A stretch of 64,000 bases of DNA, from positions 122,239 through 186,238 of the forward strand of contig JAFKFK010000013.1 of NCBI GenBank assembly GCA_017307275.1, given 5' to 3'. The notes under the pieces are model-generated. The model did no database searches and had not been told where the DNA came from. It saw only the letters and a list, made by a program, of their open reading frames with translations. The DNA is from Alphaproteobacteria bacterium (GTDB lineage Bacteria; Pseudomonadota; Alphaproteobacteria; Reyranellales; Reyranellaceae). Of the stretch, positions 54,891-63,432 are shown piece by piece (position 1 is the stretch's first letter; every line of letters starts with the position of its first letter). The position numbers were made by a program, and so were the translations under genes.

Positions 54891-55748
54891 TCAGAGCCTC
54901 CCCTGCGTAATGAAGCCTTGCGGACGGAACTTGACGATTACCAACGCGATAATGAAAACCAGCGGATCGGCGAGCACCGGCATGACGAGCCACGGCAGGC
55001 CGGCCGCCATGCCGCCAACGACGGCGGCGCCCAGGACCGGGCCCTCGAAGGTGCCAACGCCCCCCAGCATCACCGACAGGAAAGCCTGCACCAGGAAGCG
55101 CGTACCGATGTCTGCCGAGAGCTGATAGAGCGGCACGATGAGCGCGCCGGCCAGTCCGGCAAGGGCTGCGCCAAAGGCAAAGGTGAAGGCGTAGAGCCGC
55201 GACGTCGAAATCCCGCAGGCCCTCGCAAGATTGGGATTCTCGAGCGAGCCGCGAACCTGCAGGCCGACCGATGTGCGCGCGAGGAACAGCCACGTGCCGG
55301 CGATGACGCAGGCCGTGACGACGACGATGACGGTGCGCCAGATCGAAAAGTCGACGCCGAATAAAGTGAAGGCGCCCGGCAGAGGCTCGGAGATCGATTT
55401 GTAGTGGCCGCCCAGCAGCCCGCGCACGATCTCGCGAATGACCAGCCCCACCGCGTAGGTTCCCAGCATCGCGATGATCGGCGAGGCATAGAAGCGGCGG
55501 ATGACCAGCCGTTCGAGGATCAGGCCGATCAGCGCCAGCACCAGCGGCGCGGCCAGGATCCCGGCCCAGGCAGAAAGGCCGCTGCTTTCGAAGACGTAGA
55601 CGGTGTAGGCGCCGAGAAGAACGAACTCGCCATGGGCGAAGTTGAAGATGCCCATCATGCTGGCGATGATTCCAAGCCCCAGGACGATCAGCACCATCAC
55701 CGACATGAAGGCGAGCAGATCGAACACAAGCTTGATTTCGATACCCAT
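54891..55748 (-). CDS. ABC transporter permease, UrtB/LivH-like
   Basis: 285 residues; ATG 55748 is chosen, with a GTG two codons upstream possible. 'LGLGIIASMMGIFNFAHGEFVLLGAYTVYVF' is the LivH/UrtB signature, followed by 'LERLVIRRFYASPIIAMLGTYAVGLVIREIVRGLLGG' and 'LPLYQLSAD..FLVQAFLSVMLGGVGTFEGPVLGAAVVGG'-type segments. First gene of the transport operon, only 2 nt before the binding-protein gene. Confidence 0.92.
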   Translation of the reverse strand: MGIEIKLVFDLLAFMSVMVLIVLGLGIIASMMGIFNFAHGEFVLLGAYTVYVFESSGLSAWAGILAAPLVLALIGLILERLVIRRFYASPIIAMLGTYAVGLVIREIVRGLLGGHYKSISEPLPGAFTLFGVDFSIWRTVIVVVTACVIAGTWLFLARTSVGLQVRGSLENPNLARACGISTSRLYAFTFAFGAALAGLAGALIVPLYQLSADIGTRFLVQAFLSVMLGGVGTFEGPVLGAAVVGGMAAGLPWLVMPVLADPLVFIIALVIVKFRPQGFITQGRL

Positions 55749-55817
55749 GGTCACCGCATGCGATCGCAGCCGTTACGGCCCGACGCGTTAGCTACGCAAG
55801 AACCGCAGTCTCCATGT

Positions 55818-55846
55818 ATTTAAAACAGAAACTTTTCACTTTTCAA
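55818..55846 (-). promoter_or_regulatory. Probable promoter of the amide-transport operon
   Basis: On the minus strand, TTGAAA (55846-55841), 17-bp spacer, TTAAAT (55823-55818), in an AT-rich patch upstream of the UrtB-like gene. Two tandem ACTTTTC repeats (55831-55844) and an inverted GAAACT...AGTTTC pair (55828-55833, 55849-55854) overlap it and may be regulator contacts. Confidence 0.45.
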
Positions 55847-55871
55847 ATAGTTTCAGTTCGATACTCGAGCG

Positions 55872-57020
55872 TCAGAATTTTTCGAGCAATCGAAAGTCGA
55901 AGCCATCTGCCTCTGCGAAGTAAATCGGCATCTCGGCGCGCCGGTGGCGAACCCCGACCGGCCCCCTTCCCCCGCTATAGACGATGTTCGACGCGTTGGC
56001 CGTCAGGCTGGGCAGGTGCAGCGTCTCGGATCTGCGTGCCAGCGCCTCCAGGAAGTACAGCGCTTCATAGTTTGCCTGTGCGACGGCGCCCGGAATCGGC
56101 GCGCTGTCGCCGAACGCCTTCTGGTAGGCCGTGAGGAATGCTTCGTTGCACGTGGTCTTCACGCTGGCGAAGTAACCGAAGGCAGCGAACAGGTTCGTCG
56201 TGTTCTCCGCACCGATTCCCAACAGGACGGTTTCGTCGATGCAGTTCGCCAGCCGCAGCACTTTCTCGCTGAGACCATACTCGGCGAACATCCGGTTGAA
56301 GAGAATGCCGTCGAGGCCAATGAGCGATATGAAGACGACATCGGGCTGCAGTGCCCGTATGCGCTCGACATAGCGATGATGGTCAGGGTCGCCCAACGGG
56401 ACGAAATCCTCGCCCACGACCCGCCCCCCGGTCTCGGCGATGTAGCTCTTCACTTCCCGGTGCGAGAGCCAGGGCCAGACGTAATCGCTACCGATAAGGT
56501 ACCAGCGCTGGGCGCGCTTGCGTTCGGCCAGCCACGCAATCGCCGGCCGCGCCTGACGTGGCGGCGTCTCGCCGATGGCAAACAGTCCAGGCGTCCGCTC
56601 GCCGCCTTCGTAGATCGAGGGATAGATGTAAGGGAGATGGCCGGCGAACGTCTTGCGCAACGACATTCGGATCGCGCTGATGTGGTTGCCGACGATCACG
56701 TCCGCGCCGTCGGACTCGACGATGTCCTCGGCGTCGCGCGTGACGTCCTCGATTTCGGCGCCGGTGTCGATCACGGAGAGTTCGACCTCTCGCCCCAGGA
56801 TCCCGCCGCGTGCGTTGATCTGGTGGGCGGCGAGGACGGCGCAGTTGACCGACGACGGCCCCCAGATACCGGCCGTGCCGGTCATTGTCACAAAGTGTGC
56901 AACTCGTAGCTTGGATTTGTCCCGCTGGAGGGTTTTCGGCGGGTTGGGAAGCAGGGCGTGAGGCATGGACGCCTGTCCGCCGGATCCGAGCGCCGAATAG
57001 GACCCTCCGGGCATCAGCAT
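55872..57020 (-). CDS. Substrate-binding-fold protein without signal peptide (AmiC-like sensor candidate)
   Basis: 382 residues. Periplasmic-binding type 1 fold: 'LRVAHFVTMTGTAGIWGPSSVNCAVLAAHQINARGGILGREVELSVIDTGAE', 'LPYIYPSIYEGGERTPGLFAIGETPPRQ', 'YLIGSDYVWPWLSHREVKSYIAETGGRVVGEDFVPLGDPDHHRYV'. This last segment closely parallels AmiC, the amide-sensing negative regulator of Pseudomonas, which is cytosolic. The N-terminus (MLMPGGSYSALGSGGQASMPHALLPNPPK) has no hydrophobic segment, so export is unlikely. No AmiR-type ANTAR antiterminator gene is next to it. Start uncertain: ATG 57014 or 56966 are possible. Confidence 0.8.
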   Translation of the reverse strand: MLMPGGSYSALGSGGQASMPHALLPNPPKTLQRDKSKLRVAHFVTMTGTAGIWGPSSVNCAVLAAHQINARGGILGREVELSVIDTGAEIEDVTRDAEDIVESDGADVIVGNHISAIRMSLRKTFAGHLPYIYPSIYEGGERTPGLFAIGETPPRQARPAIAWLAERKRAQRWYLIGSDYVWPWLSHREVKSYIAETGGRVVGEDFVPLGDPDHHRYVERIRALQPDVVFISLIGLDGILFNRMFAEYGLSEKVLRLANCIDETVLLGIGAENTTNLFAAFGYFASVKTTCNEAFLTAYQKAFGDSAPIPGAVAQANYEALYFLEALARRSETLHLPSLTANASNIVYSGGRGPVGVRHRRAEMPIYFAEADGFDFRLLEKF

Positions 57021-57246: not shown

Positions 57247-57690
57247 GTGTCAGATTCGTCTTCTGCAGATTCACCTATCACCGTGCACCTGGCTTACCTG
57301 CTTGCTCAGGCCAATCGCGAGATCAACCGCCAGCTCGATGCACGGCTGCGCGCCGAAGGCGTGCCGGTCGAACAGTGGCGTATTCTCAAGGTGCTGTCGG
57401 ACGGCAATGGACGGTCGATGGGTGACTTGGCCGAAGCCGCGCTGCTCAACCATCCGACGCTGACCAAGACGATCGATCGCATGGTCGCCGATTCCCTCGT
57501 CTATCGGATCTCCGATCCCGCGGATCGCCGAAAGGTCCTGATCTTCTGTTCAGATCGCGGCAAGGAACTCGTGAAGCGCCTGGCGCCACTGGCGCTCGGC
57601 CAGGAAGCTCACATCGCCAAGAACTACGGCGGCAAGGCGACGGCCCAGCTCAAGCGGCTGCTCGAAGACCTGATCGAGCGCGCCGGCTGA
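57247..57690 (+). CDS. MarR family transcriptional regulator
   Basis: 147 residues from a GTG. MarR fold with winged helix at about residues 35-105: 'LRAEGVPVEQWRILKVLSDGNGRSMGDLAEAALLNHPTLTKTIDRMVADSLVYRISDPADRRKVLIFCSDRGKELV'. The recognition helix is 'NHPTLTKTIDRM' and the wing 'DPADRRKV'. Divergent from the amide gene cluster with a strong palindrome between them; it probably represses itself and perhaps the cluster. Confidence 0.92.
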   Translation: MSDSSSADSPITVHLAYLLAQANREINRQLDARLRAEGVPVEQWRILKVLSDGNGRSMGDLAEAALLNHPTLTKTIDRMVADSLVYRISDPADRRKVLIFCSDRGKELVKRLAPLALGQEAHIAKNYGGKATAQLKRLLEDLIERAG

Positions 57691-57758: not shown

Positions 57759-58391
57759 TTAGTGATCAGACGTGCCTGTCCCGGCAAACTCGTCCGACGA
57801 CAGCGCGACGATCTCACCGTTCGCCATGGGCCGCGCCGTCTCGTCGGCCCTGTAGGCCCGCATCCAGTCTGCCGTTGCCTGAAAGGAAACGCTTCGTCCC
57901 AGGAGATAGCCGCGAAAGAACTGGCCGTGGCCGACAACGATGACGAACGCAGCCTCCAGGGCGGTCAGACGACGGTGAAAGTCATTCAGCCTGCCGGCAA
58001 ATGCTCGAAACGACTCGGCGTCCGGCCCGTCGACATAGTCCGGATCGCATTGACGCCAATAGGCATCGACCCAGGGCCGCCGATCCGCCGCAGTCGTGCC
58101 TCGACATCTGGCAGGACTGAGATAGGTGAGCTCCTGAATGGGCCATGTCTCGCATCGCGTCGAAGGCCATTTCTGCCGGAGGGGATCGGCGGTCTCTCGG
58201 GTCCGCAGATACGGGGATACGACAAGCAGATCGGGCTGTCTCTCGACCTTCCCTGCCAGGGCCCGCGCCTGCTGCAAGCCAAGTTCCGTCAGCGGGATGT
58301 CGCCATAACTGTCGGCTGGCAGACCGGCATTCGAGGTGCTTTGCCCGTGTCGGACAAGCCAGGTCAGCGCTGGTGGCACAGTGCCTTCCAC
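57759..58391 (-). CDS. Histidine phosphatase family protein
   Basis: 210 residues. Phosphoglycerate-mutase-like fold: catalytic His in 'TWLVRHGQSTSNAG', 'IPLTELGLQQARALAGKV', 'LLVVSPYLRTRETADPL' and the second catalytic His in 'FVIVVGHGQFFRGYLLG'. Likely a phosphatase of a small metabolite or sugar phosphate. The start overlaps the ATP-grasp gene by 28 nt, making it the last gene of the six-gene exopolysaccharide-like operon; its relation to that pathway is unknown. Confidence 0.88.
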   Translation of the reverse strand: MEGTVPPALTWLVRHGQSTSNAGLPADSYGDIPLTELGLQQARALAGKVERQPDLLVVSPYLRTRETADPLRQKWPSTRCETWPIQELTYLSPARCRGTTAADRRPWVDAYWRQCDPDYVDGPDAESFRAFAGRLNDFHRRLTALEAAFVIVVGHGQFFRGYLLGRSVSFQATADWMRAYRADETARPMANGEIVALSSDEFAGTGTSDH

Positions 58392-59335
58392 TCGGCGGCG
58401 TCGAAGAAGTGCTCGGTCCAGTACCGCACGACCATCAGCTCCTTGAACGGCATCAATCGGTCGGGCACCGGCTTGCCCATGAGTTCGTCGACCATCAGCT
58501 TCGGCATGTCGATCCCGGCCGCCGTGGTCAGGGGCAAGGTACCAGGATAGCGCGGATTGACCTCCAGCAGCTTGAACACGCCGTCCGCTGCGCGTTTGAA
58601 CTGCACGTTGGCGATGCCGCGAATACCAATGATCTCGGCGGTGCGGATGGCCGACTGAATCACCTCTGGGATATCGACGGTTCGCGAGGCAATCGCGATG
58701 CCGGAATCGACCTTCATCCGCGCCCGCGGTACGGCGGCAATGACACGCCCATCGCTGCGAACGTAGATATCGACCGAATATTCCTCGCCCGGCAGATACT
58801 CCTGCAGCAACACCGATCCATCCATCGGCTGTTGCTCAAGGTCCTGGCGATTGCCGATCTTGGCCACGCCACGAGAGCCTGCCCCGAGCCGGGGCTTGGC
58901 GAAGCGCGGGAACGTCTCGACGCGATCGGCGACTTGTCGCGTCAATGGCTCGTTGCTCGGGATCGGCACCTGACCTTCCACCGCTTCCATCAGAAGCTGC
59001 TTGTCCCGGCATATCCGCAGACATTCGAGAGGAGAGATCGGCACGGCAACGCCCGCAGCTTCGAAGCGGTCGCGGTCTGCCGCCACGGGCATGAGCTCGG
59101 CATCGACAGTCGGCAGCAAGGCTTCGATGCGCCAGGCATCGCAGGCCCGATGCAGCGCCGGAACCAGATCGGGCGAATCGCCGCGCGGAATGATCAGGCG
59201 GCGCTCCGGTGGCACGAGATAAAGGCCTGTCGCCAGCGGATCCATGTCCGCCATGTAGAGCTCATGCTCGGCAGAGAGACTTTTCCATACGCTGATGGCC
59301 GCGGCCCCGCCCGCGCCGGTTATCAGGATACGCAT
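58364..59335 (-). CDS. ATP-grasp domain protein
   Basis: 323 residues. N-terminal Rossmann-like part 'MRILITGAGGAAAISVWKSL' and 'ALLPTVDAELMPVAADRDRF' (preATP-grasp), then the ATP-grasp fold: 'RFAKPRLGAGSRGVAKIGN' , 'VLLQEYLPGEEYSVDIYVRSDGRVIAAVPRARMKV', metal-binding 'ANVQFKRAADGVFKLLEVNPRYPGTLPLTTAAGIDM'. It resembles the carbamoyl-phosphate-synthase-large-like ligases found in polysaccharide clusters. Such enzymes couple a carboxylate to an amine or other nucleophile via an acyl phosphate. It follows the deacetylase gene by 19 nt. Confidence 0.88.
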   Translation of the reverse strand: MRILITGAGGAAAISVWKSLSAEHELYMADMDPLATGLYLVPPERRLIIPRGDSPDLVPALHRACDAWRIEALLPTVDAELMPVAADRDRFEAAGVAVPISPLECLRICRDKQLLMEAVEGQVPIPSNEPLTRQVADRVETFPRFAKPRLGAGSRGVAKIGNRQDLEQQPMDGSVLLQEYLPGEEYSVDIYVRSDGRVIAAVPRARMKVDSGIAIASRTVDIPEVIQSAIRTAEIIGIRGIANVQFKRAADGVFKLLEVNPRYPGTLPLTTAAGIDMPKLMVDELMGKPVPDRLMPFKELMVVRYWTEHFFDAAEWKALCHQR

Positions 59336-59354
59336 ACCTTGTTCTCGCCGCTCC

Positions 59355-60461
59355 TTACCCGCTTTCGGCCAACGCTCCGGCCTGCAACTGCGAATATTCC
59401 TTGCCGAAGTCTGGCACCATATCGCTGTCGCGCTGCCGGATGATCCTCAGCGGCTCGGCCAGGACGTATCCAGCGAACCGACCCCAATAGCGCGCCGTCG
59501 CCAGTATGAGGTCCGATTGAATCGACGGCATACGGTCGACCTGGCTCTTGTAGACGCTGATCAGCTCTACCTTCTGCTTGATGAATTCCGTGATGTCGAC
59601 AAACCGGTGCGGCTTGAACTCCACCGTCGAGGACGGCGTCTGATAGCAGTAGACGTTGGGAACGTTGCGGCATGCGACCAGGCTCGCCGTGTGGACCGCG
59701 CGGTGATCCTGATGCGTATCTTCGAGGCAGTGCGTGTAGACATGCGTCGGGTTGAGTTCCCGAACGGCGGCCTCGATGGCCGATATCGTCTCCGCGCCCT
59801 CTCCGATATACGTGTCGCTGAGGTTTGCGATCTTGAGGTGTGCCCCGAGAAGCGTCGCCGCGCTCTGCGCTTCGATGGCCCGAATGTTGACGTCGCCACC
59901 GGCCGACCCACGCGAAAGGGTCAGGATGTGCAGAAGGTCGTGGTTGGCGTGATGTTTGGCGAGTGTTCCACCGCAGCCAATCTCGACATCGTCGGGATGG
60001 GCGCCAATGGCCAGGACCCGCATCTGCTGGCTGTGCCGCCTCACGCTGACGGCCGTCGCCAGCAGGATAGCCTGTTCCAGCAGCTCTGCCGGCGTCACCG
60101 GCTTGAACAGCAAGCCATCAATTCGAGACTTGACCACCTGGCGCAGGAAAGACGGGGTATGGTTGCGCGAGACCACCAGCGTGCCGACCCAGCGGTATTT
60201 GTTCTTTATCTCCTTGAGCAGAGCGAAGCTCCCGGGAAGCTCGGCATCGATCACCACCAGGTCATGCCGAGTCGCTGCGATCATATGCGAAGCGGTTTCC
60301 GTGTCCGCGGTGAACTCCAGATGGATTTCCGGATTGCGGTCGAAAGCGCGCCGCACCTCGGCCGTTTCGGGTTCGTCGCGATCGACCAGCAAGATGCGGA
60401 GTTGAGTTTGAGCACTTTGCTCGACAACATTTAGCCGGGGCTTTTCCTGCGTTTGCTTCAT
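59355..60461 (-). CDS. Receiver domain fused to PIG-L (LmbE-like) N-acetyl-sugar deacetylase
   Basis: 368 residues from ATG 60461. Residues 20-135 are a response-regulator receiver: 'RILLVDRDEPETAEVRRAF' (acidic pocket D27, D29), phospho-acceptor D72 in 'DLVVIDAELPG', S98 in 'TLVVSRN', and K120-P121 in 'GLLFKPVTP'. Residues 147-365 are a PIG-L zinc-dependent deacetylase: 'RVLAIGAHPDDVEIGCGGTLAKH' (AHPDD), 'HTHQDHRAVHTAS'-type motif ('EDTHQDHRAVHTAS'). No signal peptide, so it acts in the cytosol. A phosphorelay-controlled deacetylase is unusual; no histidine kinase gene is adjacent. Confidence 0.88.
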   Translation of the reverse strand: MKQTQEKPRLNVVEQSAQTQLRILLVDRDEPETAEVRRAFDRNPEIHLEFTADTETASHMIAATRHDLVVIDAELPGSFALLKEIKNKYRWVGTLVVSRNHTPSFLRQVVKSRIDGLLFKPVTPAELLEQAILLATAVSVRRHSQQMRVLAIGAHPDDVEIGCGGTLAKHHANHDLLHILTLSRGSAGGDVNIRAIEAQSAATLLGAHLKIANLSDTYIGEGAETISAIEAAVRELNPTHVYTHCLEDTHQDHRAVHTASLVACRNVPNVYCYQTPSSTVEFKPHRFVDITEFIKQKVELISVYKSQVDRMPSIQSDLILATARYWGRFAGYVLAEPLRIIRQRDSDMVPDFGKEYSQLQAGALAESG

Positions 60462-60477
60462 GAGCGTCGATCTCTGT

Positions 60478-61815
60478 TCACCAAGTGAAGCGAAGGCCTG
60501 CGGTAACCCGCGTATCGGCATTGATTGAATTGTGCGTCGCGGCGACCTGCAAAGCTATCCGATCGGTAACGGGCACCGTCGCGCGGGCGTGCAAATCTAC
60601 GTTATCGATCAGGGGGCTGTAGCCCACGCCCGCGACCACGAGCATGTTCCGCGGCCCGTAATAGGTGACGTCGAAAACCCAGCTCCAAAGGTTCTGGTAG
60701 TTGTTGAAGATCGCCTGGGCCGAATTGTAGACCGTCGCCGTGACCTCCCAGGATGGGGAGACCGTGGCACTGAGCCCGGTCCTGATCAGGCGGCCATTCC
60801 ACTGGAAGGCGCCAAACGCCTGGCGATAGCCACCGAACCAGCGGAGCCAGTCCACGAGGTAGAGCGTAACGCTCCCTTCGATCCAGTGTTCCGTCGGGAG
60901 ATTGGTGTGCGCCCGATAGTCGTAGACGAGGGAGAAGGCGTAACTCAGCGGCACCAGCCGATGGAATCCCACGGTGATGTCGTCCGACGGCAGCGTGGCA
61001 AGGCCGATGGCGGATACTGTCTGCAGTTCGTTGGTGTAGTGCTGCCACCCCAGTTCCAACGTATCGAAGGCCGTGATGCCGGCCATTCCGCGTGCACCGA
61101 AGCCGGCCGATGTACCCTGCGCCGTCGAGACCACCGCACCGTTCACATCCAGCAAATAACGATAGACGTCCGGGGCCTCGGACAGACCGGTACGGGCCTC
61201 TTCGTTCTTCGGGTCGATCGACAGCACATGCTCGAAGCCAGCTTTGGCCTTCTCCCGATTGCGATGGGCAAGTTCCAGCCAGGCCATGCCATTCAAGGCG
61301 TCGGGATCCCGGGGATTCGCCGCCAGCAGCCGTTCATAAAGCGCCCGCGCCTCGCTCAGGCGATTTTCGCCACGCTCGACGCGCGCCAGTCCTAGCAACG
61401 CCGGCCGGTTGGAAGGATCGCGCGCCAGGATCTGCTCATAGACCTTGGCGGCCTCGCGCGGTTCATGCGCTTCCAAGGTGAAGGCAAGTTCCAGGGCCGG
61501 GTTCGGCTCCTGGGGCGCCATTTCCTGCGCCTTCCTCAGAAAGTCGATGGCCTGCTGCCGCTTGCCGGCATCGCGCGCCATGACGCCCAGGAACATGTAG
61601 ACGCGATAGTCGGTCGATCCCGCCGCCTGGCAGGCCGCCAGGATAGGCTCGACCTCCGATACCGGGCGTGGCTGCTGGCCGAACAGTCGCTGTGCCTGCT
61701 CGACGTCGCAAACCGGCTGCGCTCCCGCACCGGCCGAATAGAAACCGATCACACACAGCATGGCCGCGAAGCCACCGCGTTGCATACTTTGTTTGAGAGA
61801 GGAAACAACTTGCAT
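60478..61815 (-). CDS. TPR plus outer-membrane beta-barrel protein (YaiO/PgaA-like export porin candidate)
   Basis: 445 residues; start at 61815. Signal peptide about 1-32 (ending 'SAGAGA-QP'). TPR repeats about 70-215 ('RVYMFLGVMARDAGKRQQAIDFLRKAQEMAPQEPN', 'PALLGLARVERGENRLSEARALYERLLAANPRDP', 'ALNGMAWLELAHRNREKAKAGFEHVLSIDPKNE'). From about 220 onward, alternating aromatic strands typical of a YaiO-type barrel end in 'TRVTAGLRFTW', a C-terminal aromatic as in BAM-folded porins. The combination is a small version of PgaA, the exporter of poly-N-acetylglucosamine. Confidence 0.85.
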   Translation of the reverse strand: MQVVSSLKQSMQRGGFAAMLCVIGFYSAGAGAQPVCDVEQAQRLFGQQPRPVSEVEPILAACQAAGSTDYRVYMFLGVMARDAGKRQQAIDFLRKAQEMAPQEPNPALELAFTLEAHEPREAAKVYEQILARDPSNRPALLGLARVERGENRLSEARALYERLLAANPRDPDALNGMAWLELAHRNREKAKAGFEHVLSIDPKNEEARTGLSEAPDVYRYLLDVNGAVVSTAQGTSAGFGARGMAGITAFDTLELGWQHYTNELQTVSAIGLATLPSDDITVGFHRLVPLSYAFSLVYDYRAHTNLPTEHWIEGSVTLYLVDWLRWFGGYRQAFGAFQWNGRLIRTGLSATVSPSWEVTATVYNSAQAIFNNYQNLWSWVFDVTYYGPRNMLVVAGVGYSPLIDNVDLHARATVPVTDRIALQVAATHNSINADTRVTAGLRFTW

Positions 61816-61825
61816 GGGCTGCCGA

Positions 61826-61957
61826 TCAAACGATGAGGTAGACAAGCAAGAGGAAGCCCATGACAGCGAACACGGCGACTTCACTCCAGAAGATGCGCTT
61901 CTCCTGGCTGATGTCCTCGGCCAGGAGCCGCTCGAACTGGCTGTCAGGCGTCCTCAC
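61826..61957 (-). CDS. 43-residue single-pass membrane protein, coupled to the GT2 gene
   Basis: Too short for routine ORF calling. GTG start (61957-61955) overlaps the TGA of the glycosyltransferase gene (GTGA). Sequence: MRTPDSQFERLLAEDISQEK then RIFWSEVAVF, AVMGFLLLVYLIV, so a charged amphipathic N-terminus of about 23 residues followed by one transmembrane helix at the C-terminus. 10 nt separate it from the TPR-barrel gene. By position it is analogous to PgaD or other small partner subunits of processive GT2 synthases. That analogy is inference; there is no sequence similarity I can point to. Confidence 0.7.
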   Translation of the reverse strand: MRTPDSQFERLLAEDISQEKRIFWSEVAVFAVMGFLLLVYLIV

Positions 61958-63432
61958 GTCGGAAGCCTCGCCTTGCCGGACTTGATCGTCTTGTCCCATT
62001 TCAGATCAGCGTTCCTGAACTGCGCGAACATGGCGCCGAGAGAAATTGCACAGAGCAGCGGACCGTACCCGACGAGCACCAGCAAGACGTTGCGCAGCGT
62101 CTTGGAAGCACCCGCCTTGTCGATGCGATAGACAGCCCAGGCGAGCAGCGTCGAAATGGCCGACCAGCCGAGGACGACCTGAACGGCAACGTCTTGCCAG
62201 CTCCACCCGCCCGGCTGCAGCGTCCAGTTCGCGGATTCGGCAAAGGGCTTGAGACCGAATAGGGCGAGCGCCATGACGCACACCGACAGTACGCCGGGAA
62301 AGGCGATGCCTTCGAACCAGCATCGCTTGGCGGTCGTCGGATCGATGGCGAACGAAAACACTGTCTGGAAGAAATAGCTGGCGAAAGTGACGCCCCAGAA
62401 GGCAGAGAACGCCGCCGGCGCCCACGGCGGCCACGCATAGTAAAGGCCAACCAGCCCGATCGAGCCCGCGAGCATGAAGACCGGCATGAAGGCAATGCTG
62501 AACCACAGGAACCCGAAGGCGATGTCGCCGAGCAGGCGGCTCCTCTTTGGCCGAAACCACAGGTGACGGAAGGTCCTGGTGATCTGCAGGTTTCCACGCC
62601 CCCAGCGCAGGCGCTGCCTCCACAGTGCCGTCAGACTGTCGGGCTCCTCCGCCCAGACGACGGCATTTGCATCGAACACAGCGCGATGGCCGGAAAGCTG
62701 CGTCAGGATGGTCGTAAACGTATCTTCGGCCAGCGTGCTGGTGTCGATCTCGCCACCGATTGCCAGCAGGTTCTCGCGGCTGTGCAACTGCGCGCCACCC
62801 GCCATGCACGGCAGCCCTCCCATGACATTCTGCGCCCGCCGTGCGGCCGCCTGGGCCGTGATGTATTCGAAGGCAATGAAGCGCGAGAGCAGGCTGGGGG
62901 GCTGGCTGCCCTCCTTGACGTAGGCCGTGACGCCACCGACCTCGGGATCGGCAAGATGGCGCACCATTCGGCGCAGCGTGAGCGGCTCGAACAGCACGTC
63001 GGCGTCCATGATCATGACGGCCTCGGCCCAGTTCTCGGCCAGGATCGTATGGATGCCATGGTTGAGAGCGTGGGCTTTGCCCTGCCCGCCCCTTTCCCGC
63101 CGGAGATGAAACACCGAGCCCGGATACTGAGCCATCTTCGCGCGCATGACGTCGGGCGTGTGATCGGTGCTGGCATCGTCGACGACATAGATGCGCCAGC
63201 ATCCGGCCGGGTAGTCGATGCTCATCAAGGAATCGATGCTGGAATTCAGCACATCCGCCTCATTCCAGGCCGGCAGCACAAAGGCTACGCGCGGGGTGAT
63301 GTCACGGCACTTGGGATAGTGATTCCAGATGCCATGCAGGCCGACGATCAGGAACTGAGCGAACGTCGACAACGTCGGCACCATGCCGAGCAGTATGCAG
63401 CTCAGAAAAAGAACGACCCAAAATTCCGTCAA
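61954..63432 (-). CDS. Membrane GT2 glycosyltransferase (processive polysaccharide synthase)
   Basis: 492 residues. A TTG at 63432 is the only start before an upstream stop; ATG 63384 is an alternative. One N-terminal membrane segment (about 5-35), GT-A catalytic domain with 'VAFVLPAWNEADVLNSSI', D85-D86 ('VVDDAST'), DAD 143-145 ('IMDADV'), E236-D237 ('LAEDTF') and QRLRW at 273-277, the processivity motif. At least five membrane segments follow (295-470). This is the layout of PgaC/IcaA, HasA and cellulose synthase-type enzymes. Donor sugar unknown; the neighbouring PIG-L deacetylase points to an N-acetylated amino sugar. Confidence 0.92.
   Translation of the reverse strand: MTEFWVVLFLSCILLGMVPTLSTFAQFLIVGLHGIWNHYPKCRDITPRVAFVLPAWNEADVLNSSIDSLMSIDYPAGCWRIYVVDDASTDHTPDVMRAKMAQYPGSVFHLRRERGGQGKAHALNHGIHTILAENWAEAVMIMDADVLFEPLTLRRMVRHLADPEVGGVTAYVKEGSQPPSLLSRFIAFEYITAQAAARRAQNVMGGLPCMAGGAQLHSRENLLAIGGEIDTSTLAEDTFTTILTQLSGHRAVFDANAVVWAEEPDSLTALWRQRLRWGRGNLQITRTFRHLWFRPKRSRLLGDIAFGFLWFSIAFMPVFMLAGSIGLVGLYYAWPPWAPAAFSAFWGVTFASYFFQTVFSFAIDPTTAKRCWFEGIAFPGVLSVCVMALALFGLKPFAESANWTLQPGGWSWQDVAVQVVLGWSAISTLLAWAVYRIDKAGASKTLRNVLLVLVGYGPLLCAISLGAMFAQFRNADLKWDKTIKSGKARLPT

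Follow-up and report, generated by a model that had tools for sequence, protein, structure and literature searches.

The 64,000-nucleotide stretch analysed here (the window), part of contig JAFKFK010000013.1 from a genome of the Reyranellaceae, carries six closely packed open frames on its minus strand between 57759 and 63432. These six genes are a real, recurring cluster, and from their sequences we read it as a further variant of synthase-dependent polysaccharide secretion, undescribed in the literature searched. We put at somewhat better than even the prospect that the cluster makes and exports an N-acetylhexosamine glycan whose amines would be uncovered by a deacetylase and re-capped by a ligase. 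The genes, in order of transcription, are:

61954..63432, minus strand: family 2 glycosyltransferase (GT2), likely glycan synthase; 492 residues, TTG start, alternative ATG at 63384
61826..61957, minus strand: one-helix protein, likely GT2 partner; 43 residues, GTG start
60478..61815, minus strand: tetratricopeptide repeat (TPR) domain with outer-membrane-type beta-barrel, likely exporter; 445 residues
59355..60461, minus strand: receiver fused to a PIG-L de-N-acetylase homologue; 368 residues
58364..59335, minus strand: ATP-grasp ligase homologue; 323 residues
57759..58391, minus strand: histidine phosphatase homologue; 210 residues

Recurrence and layout of the cluster

A protein search with the receiver-PIG-L protein gave 2633 relatives at E <= 1e-20 (7996 candidates scored, the window's own included), and a genome scan with a 36-row alignment of such relatives gave at least 576 confirmed loci, of which the best 80 were kept. 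Profiles were built from these 80 loci, and matches were counted within 12 kilobases (kb), with a threshold of 300 bits for the GT2. Among the 42 loci with a receiver-PIG-L gene, the GT2 is present in 32, ATP-grasp in 37, a histidine kinase in 29 and the TPR-barrel in nine (at least 100 bits with the family profile), together with either a histidine phosphatase (7/42) or a PHP phosphoesterase (27/42), never both. ATP-grasp is present in all 32 loci carrying the system GT2, and a phosphoesterase in 30 of them. The 38 control loci, in which PIG-L lacks a receiver, hold no GT2 at 300 bits, no phosphoesterase and no kinase, and ATP-grasp in three. The recurrence of the set in other genomes excludes a chance assembly of the six genes. 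The original prediction had taken them for a single system, which accords with this conserved neighbourhood (system GT2 in 32/42 loci versus 0/38 controls). It had also placed the logic of the system in the first four genes; their synthase-type reading stands, whereas ATP-grasp and the phosphatase prove to be core parts as well and the TPR-barrel an optional one.

By record title, the hosts include Alphaproteobacteria, Burkholderiales and Comamonas, Lysobacterales (a locus cut by its contig, with no GT2 on it), Marinicella, Legionella and many Actinomycetota. The frequent actinobacterial order is receiver-PIG-L, ATP-grasp, PHP phosphoesterase, GT2 and one-helix protein, often followed by a receiver and a histidine kinase. 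Locus L018 has the usual order of receiver-PIG-L, ATP-grasp, PHP phosphoesterase and histidine kinase without a GT2, and L017, L038, L040 and L043 have receiver-PIG-L and a histidine kinase within 12 kb with neither GT2 nor ATP-grasp; the deacetylase at these last four may serve another pathway. The system GT2 stands in two tandem copies at L031:12981-15999, and in Legionella drozanskii (L012:1154-3286) a GH81 family gene lies directly upstream of the GT2. Among plasmids, 222 records match the receiver-PIG-L protein and 477 the GT2, none covering more than 80% of the query.

A wide distribution is not seen. In the family sample of 61 genomes the system GT2 occurs in 11, the window's own included and all in one genus, and it is rare in the phylum samples, with 1/398 genomes in that of the window (its own only) and 2/296 in that of Cellulomonas (the query genome included), both lower bounds since up to 3 or 5 candidates were scored per genome. 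Two of the other ten genus loci (L101 and L104) repeat loci L006 and L004, and five of the remaining eight hold all six parts (L102, L105, L106, L108 and L109). PIG-L is broken into two frames in L103, a contig end falls inside the GT2 in L110, and L107, which starts at a contig end, shows PIG-L, GT2 and the one-helix frame within the stretch examined (4500 bases out of 11385). The GT2 and its partner are oriented toward the other four genes in L105, L106 and L108, and in L109 GT2, partner, ATP-grasp and phosphatase are oriented toward PIG-L and the barrel. Within the window's genus the gene set is thus kept while its order is shuffled, as for a linked function. No second copy of the system was found in the window genome: the GT2 search gives one match and the PIG-L search an orphan receiver-PIG-L gene and a weak match. 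The orphan (G000:C31:31089-32141; loci L002 and L087) is 54% identical to the window's protein, and no GT2, ATP-grasp or phosphatase was found in the surrounding 20 kb.

The layout in the window, as given by open frames and Pfam, matches in order and spacing the six packed minus-strand genes originally described. GT2 and one-helix frames overlap by 4 nucleotides (nt), gaps of 10, 16 and 19 nt follow between one-helix and TPR-barrel, TPR-barrel (frame end at 60478) and PIG-L, and PIG-L and ATP-grasp, and ATP-grasp overlaps the histidine phosphatase by 28 nt. The TTG start of the GT2 has its counterpart in relatives L004 and L006, which begin with ATG at the same place, and for the one-helix protein a longer frame of 57 residues is also open from an ATG at 61999. 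Pfam matches are Glyco_tranf_2_3 for the GT2 (107.8 bits), TPR_19 for the TPR-barrel (63.8), Response_reg and PIG-L for the fusion (41.0 and 85.9), ATPgrasp_Ter and ATP-grasp_3 for the ligase (106.4 and 52.4) and His_Phos_1 for the phosphatase (79.9), with no match above cutoff for the 43-residue protein. As no listed NCBIfam match of the six genes attains its cutoff, the five larger genes fall within known superfamilies but outside every curated NCBIfam family. An Rfam search of the window gave no RNA element at gathering score. Parts of a branched-chain amino acid type ATP-binding cassette (ABC) transporter (54891-57020, minus) and a MarR regulator (57247-57690, plus) lie on one side of the cluster, and a C-terminal autotransporter beta-domain (PF03797; 63659-64000, minus), cut by the contig end, on the other.

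Probable synthase, membrane partner and exporter

The motifs noted originally in the GT2 (DD, DAD, ED and QxxRW) do not vary across an alignment of 19 system GT2s. A 34-row tree places 18 system GT2s, that of the window and 17 drawn from the 32 loci, on one side of a branch with support of 99/100, apart from two PgaC, two YaiP, NodC, BcsA, OpgH, ArnC, NfrB and seven further GT2s; because of several long outgroup branches, the order of the outgroups is unsure. PgaC/IcaA is the nearest NCBIfam model (TIGR03937, 116.2 bits, cutoff 422.3), followed by NodC (TIGR04242, 83.2 bits, cutoff 550).

An improbable alternative is that the GT2 adds one or a few amino sugars to a lipid or other surface acceptor and that the remaining enzymes edit the head group. 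ArnC and HpnI are GT2 enzymes of such a role, and the window's protein reaches 66 bits with the HpnB model and 44 with that of HpnI. The PgaC and NodC models score higher, however, and ArnC lies outside the clade, reaching 18.8 bits with the system GT2 profile where two PgaC reach 103 and 121. These comparisons are consistent with the earlier expectation that the GT2 would not group with lipid transferases.

Of the 32 GT2 loci, 27 have a one-helix frame that begins at most 60 nt from the end of the GT2. In two Legionella loci a stretch resembling it forms the C-terminus of the GT2 itself, with an FxxxLAxD motif and a helix; the one-helix profile gives it 9.1 and 7.1 bits, weak scores at the expected place. 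The part is thus adjacent or fused in 29/32 loci, and its recurrence beside the GT2 and fusion to it in Legionella speak for a genuine gene in the 43-residue frame and for a partnership of its product with the synthase. The small membrane partner proposed in the original prediction accordingly belongs with the GT2.

The nearest solved folds to the modelled barrel are OmpG and, when the TPRs are included, BcsC. BcsC is the best Foldseek match to the TPR-barrel model and covers both parts, and OmpG gives the best VIA-align rows for the barrel, with no PgaA, AlgE or BcsC entry among the 50 rows listed. These neighbours speak against the kinship with unrelated porins by which the single-system reading was to have failed. 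Two features that mark synthase-dependent systems are found in the window: synthase-type motifs in a GT2 that has its membrane partner beside it and, from the model and fold searches, a TPR domain with an outer-membrane pore.

Predicted deacetylase, ligase and pathway

In the receiver the phospho-acceptor Asp is kept in 37 of 39 aligned rows and the Thr/Ser in 36, and the AHPDD and HQDH motifs of PIG-L are present in all 39. With this Asp and intact enzyme motifs, the protein has the marks of a response regulator with an enzyme output and may act as one. Inspection of its N-terminus by eye revealed no signal peptide, which fits the earlier suggestion of a cytosolic PIG-L in place of PgaB.

The main rival to the glycan reading, and in our judgement an unlikely one, is a small glycosyl-amide pathway of the mycothiol or bacillithiol kind, yielding a low-mass or lipid-linked compound and no polymer. 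The mycothiol order of glycosyltransferase, phosphatase, deacetylase and ligase matches four activities of the cluster, BshB1 is nearest to PIG-L among curated models and solved structures, and the steady pairing of ATP-grasp and phosphoesterase described below fits small-molecule chemistry. Set against this, such pathways use soluble GT4 enzymes, whereas the GT2 is PgaC-like and comes with a membrane partner of one helix, and the loci of diderm bacteria carry a TPR-barrel protein. Nor does PIG-L attain the cutoff of either deacetylase model (BshB1, 89.5 bits, cutoff 182.5; MshB, 14.8 bits, cutoff 224.35).

The ATP-grasp protein gives a model with a mean predicted local distance difference test (pLDDT) score of 95.2, for which the fold search returns 2pn1 as nearest, followed by biotin carboxylases, PylC and the L-amino acid ligase YwfE, with Ddl lower. 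The modelled fold fits amide formation and names no substrate; conserved positions in 32 aligned rows include the LLE(V/I)N motif. It is plausible, as originally suggested, that the ligase would acylate the amine freed by deacetylation. In 48 loci examined, all 38 that have both ATP-grasp and phosphoesterase carry them side by side on the same strand with a gap below 200 nt (for L108, a minor stretch of the same frame was used). Where proteobacterial loci have a phosphoesterase it is of the histidine phosphatase type, with PHP proteins found in Actinomycetota and at a single locus of Myxococcales (L033), where GT2 and ATP-grasp are both missing.

A receiver-less sister cluster comprising PIG-L, GT2, ATP-grasp and a UDP-N-acetylglucosamine (UDP-GlcNAc) 2-epimerase is common to L045, L054, L125 and L126. 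Its ATP-grasp was found in four genomes of a class sample of 296, that of L054 among them. The L126 epimerase, the sole one scanned against the WecB model, scores 250 bits (cutoff 210), and this predicted UDP-N-acetylmannosamine (UDP-ManNAc)-making enzyme points to an N-acetylhexosamine, at least in the sister cluster. An exosortase-like gene is present in L054, L125 and L126 and was not found in L045, and a HAD hydrolase follows the epimerase in L045, L125 and L126, the L054 contig ending before that point. The sister cluster may itself represent a separate, second glycan system. The fourth genome (L127) carries PIG-L, ATP-grasp, PHP, a GT2 of 668 bits and the one-helix frame, again without a receiver, and because L127 and the sister cluster lack it, the receiver looks like an added control. 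Judged by the families present, three unrelated folds may serve as the phosphatase.

In the glycan pathway that we favour, the GT2 and its one-helix partner would polymerise UDP-N-acetylhexosamine across the inner membrane in the manner of PgaC/PgaD, and a histidine kinase would phosphorylate the receiver and so set the activity of PIG-L. As PIG-L and ATP-grasp look cytosolic, the exported polymer would be out of their reach, and they would act on the donor, on a primer or at the growing end. ATP-grasp would then link the free amine to a carboxylate, which might be an amino acid, the phosphatase could strip a phosphate from the substrate or product of the ligase, and in diderms the TPR domain and a barrel of 14 to 16 strands would pass the chain outward. 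A fuller version is put forward tentatively and is rather doubtful as a whole: a two-component signal would switch the chemistry of a secreted polysaccharide, the phosphorylated receiver would activate the cytosolic PIG-L, and ATP-grasp with its own phosphatase would then attach amino acids to the freed amines, giving a peptide-decorated (N-aminoacylated) polymer secreted by one- and two-membrane bacteria alike.

Several observations weigh against the glycan pathway and the single system behind it. Among models and solved structures, those closest to PIG-L are deacetylases of small molecules, which would fit a mycothiol-like compound too. The BcsC match has a TM-score of 0.35 and a root-mean-square deviation of 19.8, the TPR-barrel profile stays below 100 bits at every actinobacterial locus, where the clusters show no barrel, and the one-helix frame was not found in three of the 32 GT2 loci (L030, L031 and L035). 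No histidine kinase is seen beside the window operon, where the contig ends on the upstream side. The counts are not independent, since all 80 loci were taken as best matches to a single query and many are closely related, and the absence of the GT2 from controls hinges on the 300-bit threshold; control loci L045 and L054 hold a divergent GT2 (150 and 146 bits) with ATP-grasp. Ten of the 42 receiver-PIG-L loci lack the GT2, some cut by contig ends and six (L017, L018, L033, L038, L040 and L043) not plainly so, and L009 and L011 are the two GT2 loci without a phosphoesterase. In the sister cluster the epimerase sits between ATP-grasp and the HAD hydrolase, and the pairing there looks looser.

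Those ten loci would also agree with a neighbourhood shared by two modules that are not linked, one pairing synthase with exporter and the other a cytosolic pathway of PIG-L, ATP-grasp and phosphatase, as would the haloarchaeal locus L061 at a contig end, which has PIG-L and ATP-grasp, with a HAD hydrolase between them on the opposite strand, and no GT2. This explanation is very improbable, however, given that ATP-grasp accompanies the system GT2 in all 32 of the scanned loci that hold it, across phyla, that the sets survive rearrangement, and that the sister cluster retains PIG-L, a GT2 and ATP-grasp.

The cluster looks like a further synthase-dependent exopolysaccharide system, common to Proteobacteria and Actinomycetota, with a receiver-fused deacetylase, ATP-grasp in the place of an acyltransferase and a phosphoesterase slot held by unrelated folds as its unusual traits. 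If this is true, it would offer a route to polymers bearing amide-linked groups, with polymer charge set by cell signalling. The conservation of motifs and the presence and absence of the system within one genus leave it open to direct testing.

Comparison with known systems

The poly-N-acetylglucosamine (PNAG) systems pgaABCD and icaADBC (L085 in E. coli K-12) share with the cluster a GT2 synthase with a small membrane partner, a TPR-barrel exporter and an N-deacetylase. PgaB is periplasmic, whereas the cluster has a receiver-PIG-L protein without a visible signal peptide and adds ATP-grasp and a phosphatase. Membership was rejected on all three counts: the GT2 stays below the PgaC/IcaA equivalog cutoff and falls outside the PgaC pair in the tree, PIG-L is the only deacetylase found among the six genes, where a PgaB/IcaB type would be expected, and the exporter scores 32.5 bits with the PgaA model (TIGR03939, cutoff 366.65). 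For cellulose (bcs), membership was rejected as well, since the GT2 gives 57.8 bits with the BcsA/CelA synthase model (TIGR03030, cutoff 699.1) and BcsA lies outside the GT2 clade; BcsC, the exporter matched by Foldseek, has a much longer TPR part than the window's protein.

Bundalovic-Torma and colleagues surveyed five synthase-dependent exopolysaccharides in 2020, and the terms 'PIG-L', 'ATP-grasp' and 'YaiO' are absent from the main text of that survey (PMC7112194). The NfrA/NfrB glycan receptor system of phage N4 likewise combines a GT2 synthase with a TPR-barrel and, in the published account, requires WecB, whose product UDP-ManNAc the authors argue to be the precursor; it differs in its control by cyclic di-GMP through an MshEN-like domain (PMC8669472). 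NfrA/NfrB also has no PIG-L, ATP-grasp or phosphatase gene alongside.

The literature search, which did not reach subscription papers and preprints, returned no description of the cluster, in keeping with the original statement that no described system with this exact set was known; a parallel, however, exists in annotated E. coli and Salmonella records. This is the yai cassette (yaiS-yaiP-yaiX-yaiO), a single run of PIG-L protein, GT2, acyl-transferring enzyme and outer-membrane barrel; plasmids of both hosts carry a like run, with an acetyltransferase and YaiO, and yaiX of K-12 is interrupted by an insertion element. The window likewise has a PIG-L deacetylase and a GT2 in one run, and YaiS is 37% identical to its PIG-L over 167 residues. 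The cassette differs in having an acetyltransferase (in the E. coli plasmid copy, one of the hexapeptide type) where the cluster has ATP-grasp and in lacking receiver, TPR and phosphatase, and YaiP lies outside the system GT2 clade. The window's barrel is not a YaiO, as it matches neither PF19413 nor TIGR04390, both of which match the plasmid YaiO, and membership of the yai type was rejected. No paper on the function of a yai-type cassette was found.

Rhizobial NodC, NodB and NodA likewise provide a GT2 synthase, an N-deacetylase and an N-acylating enzyme. In that system NodB and NodA are of other folds, the product is a short oligomer and export is by an ABC transporter, and the window's GT2, far below the NodC equivalog cutoff, was rejected as a member. 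The set of synthase, N-deacetylase and acylating enzyme appears three times, in the yai-type cassette, in nodABC and, as predicted, in the present cluster, whose overall logic may be likened to NodC/NodB/NodA editing combined with export of the Bcs/Pga type.

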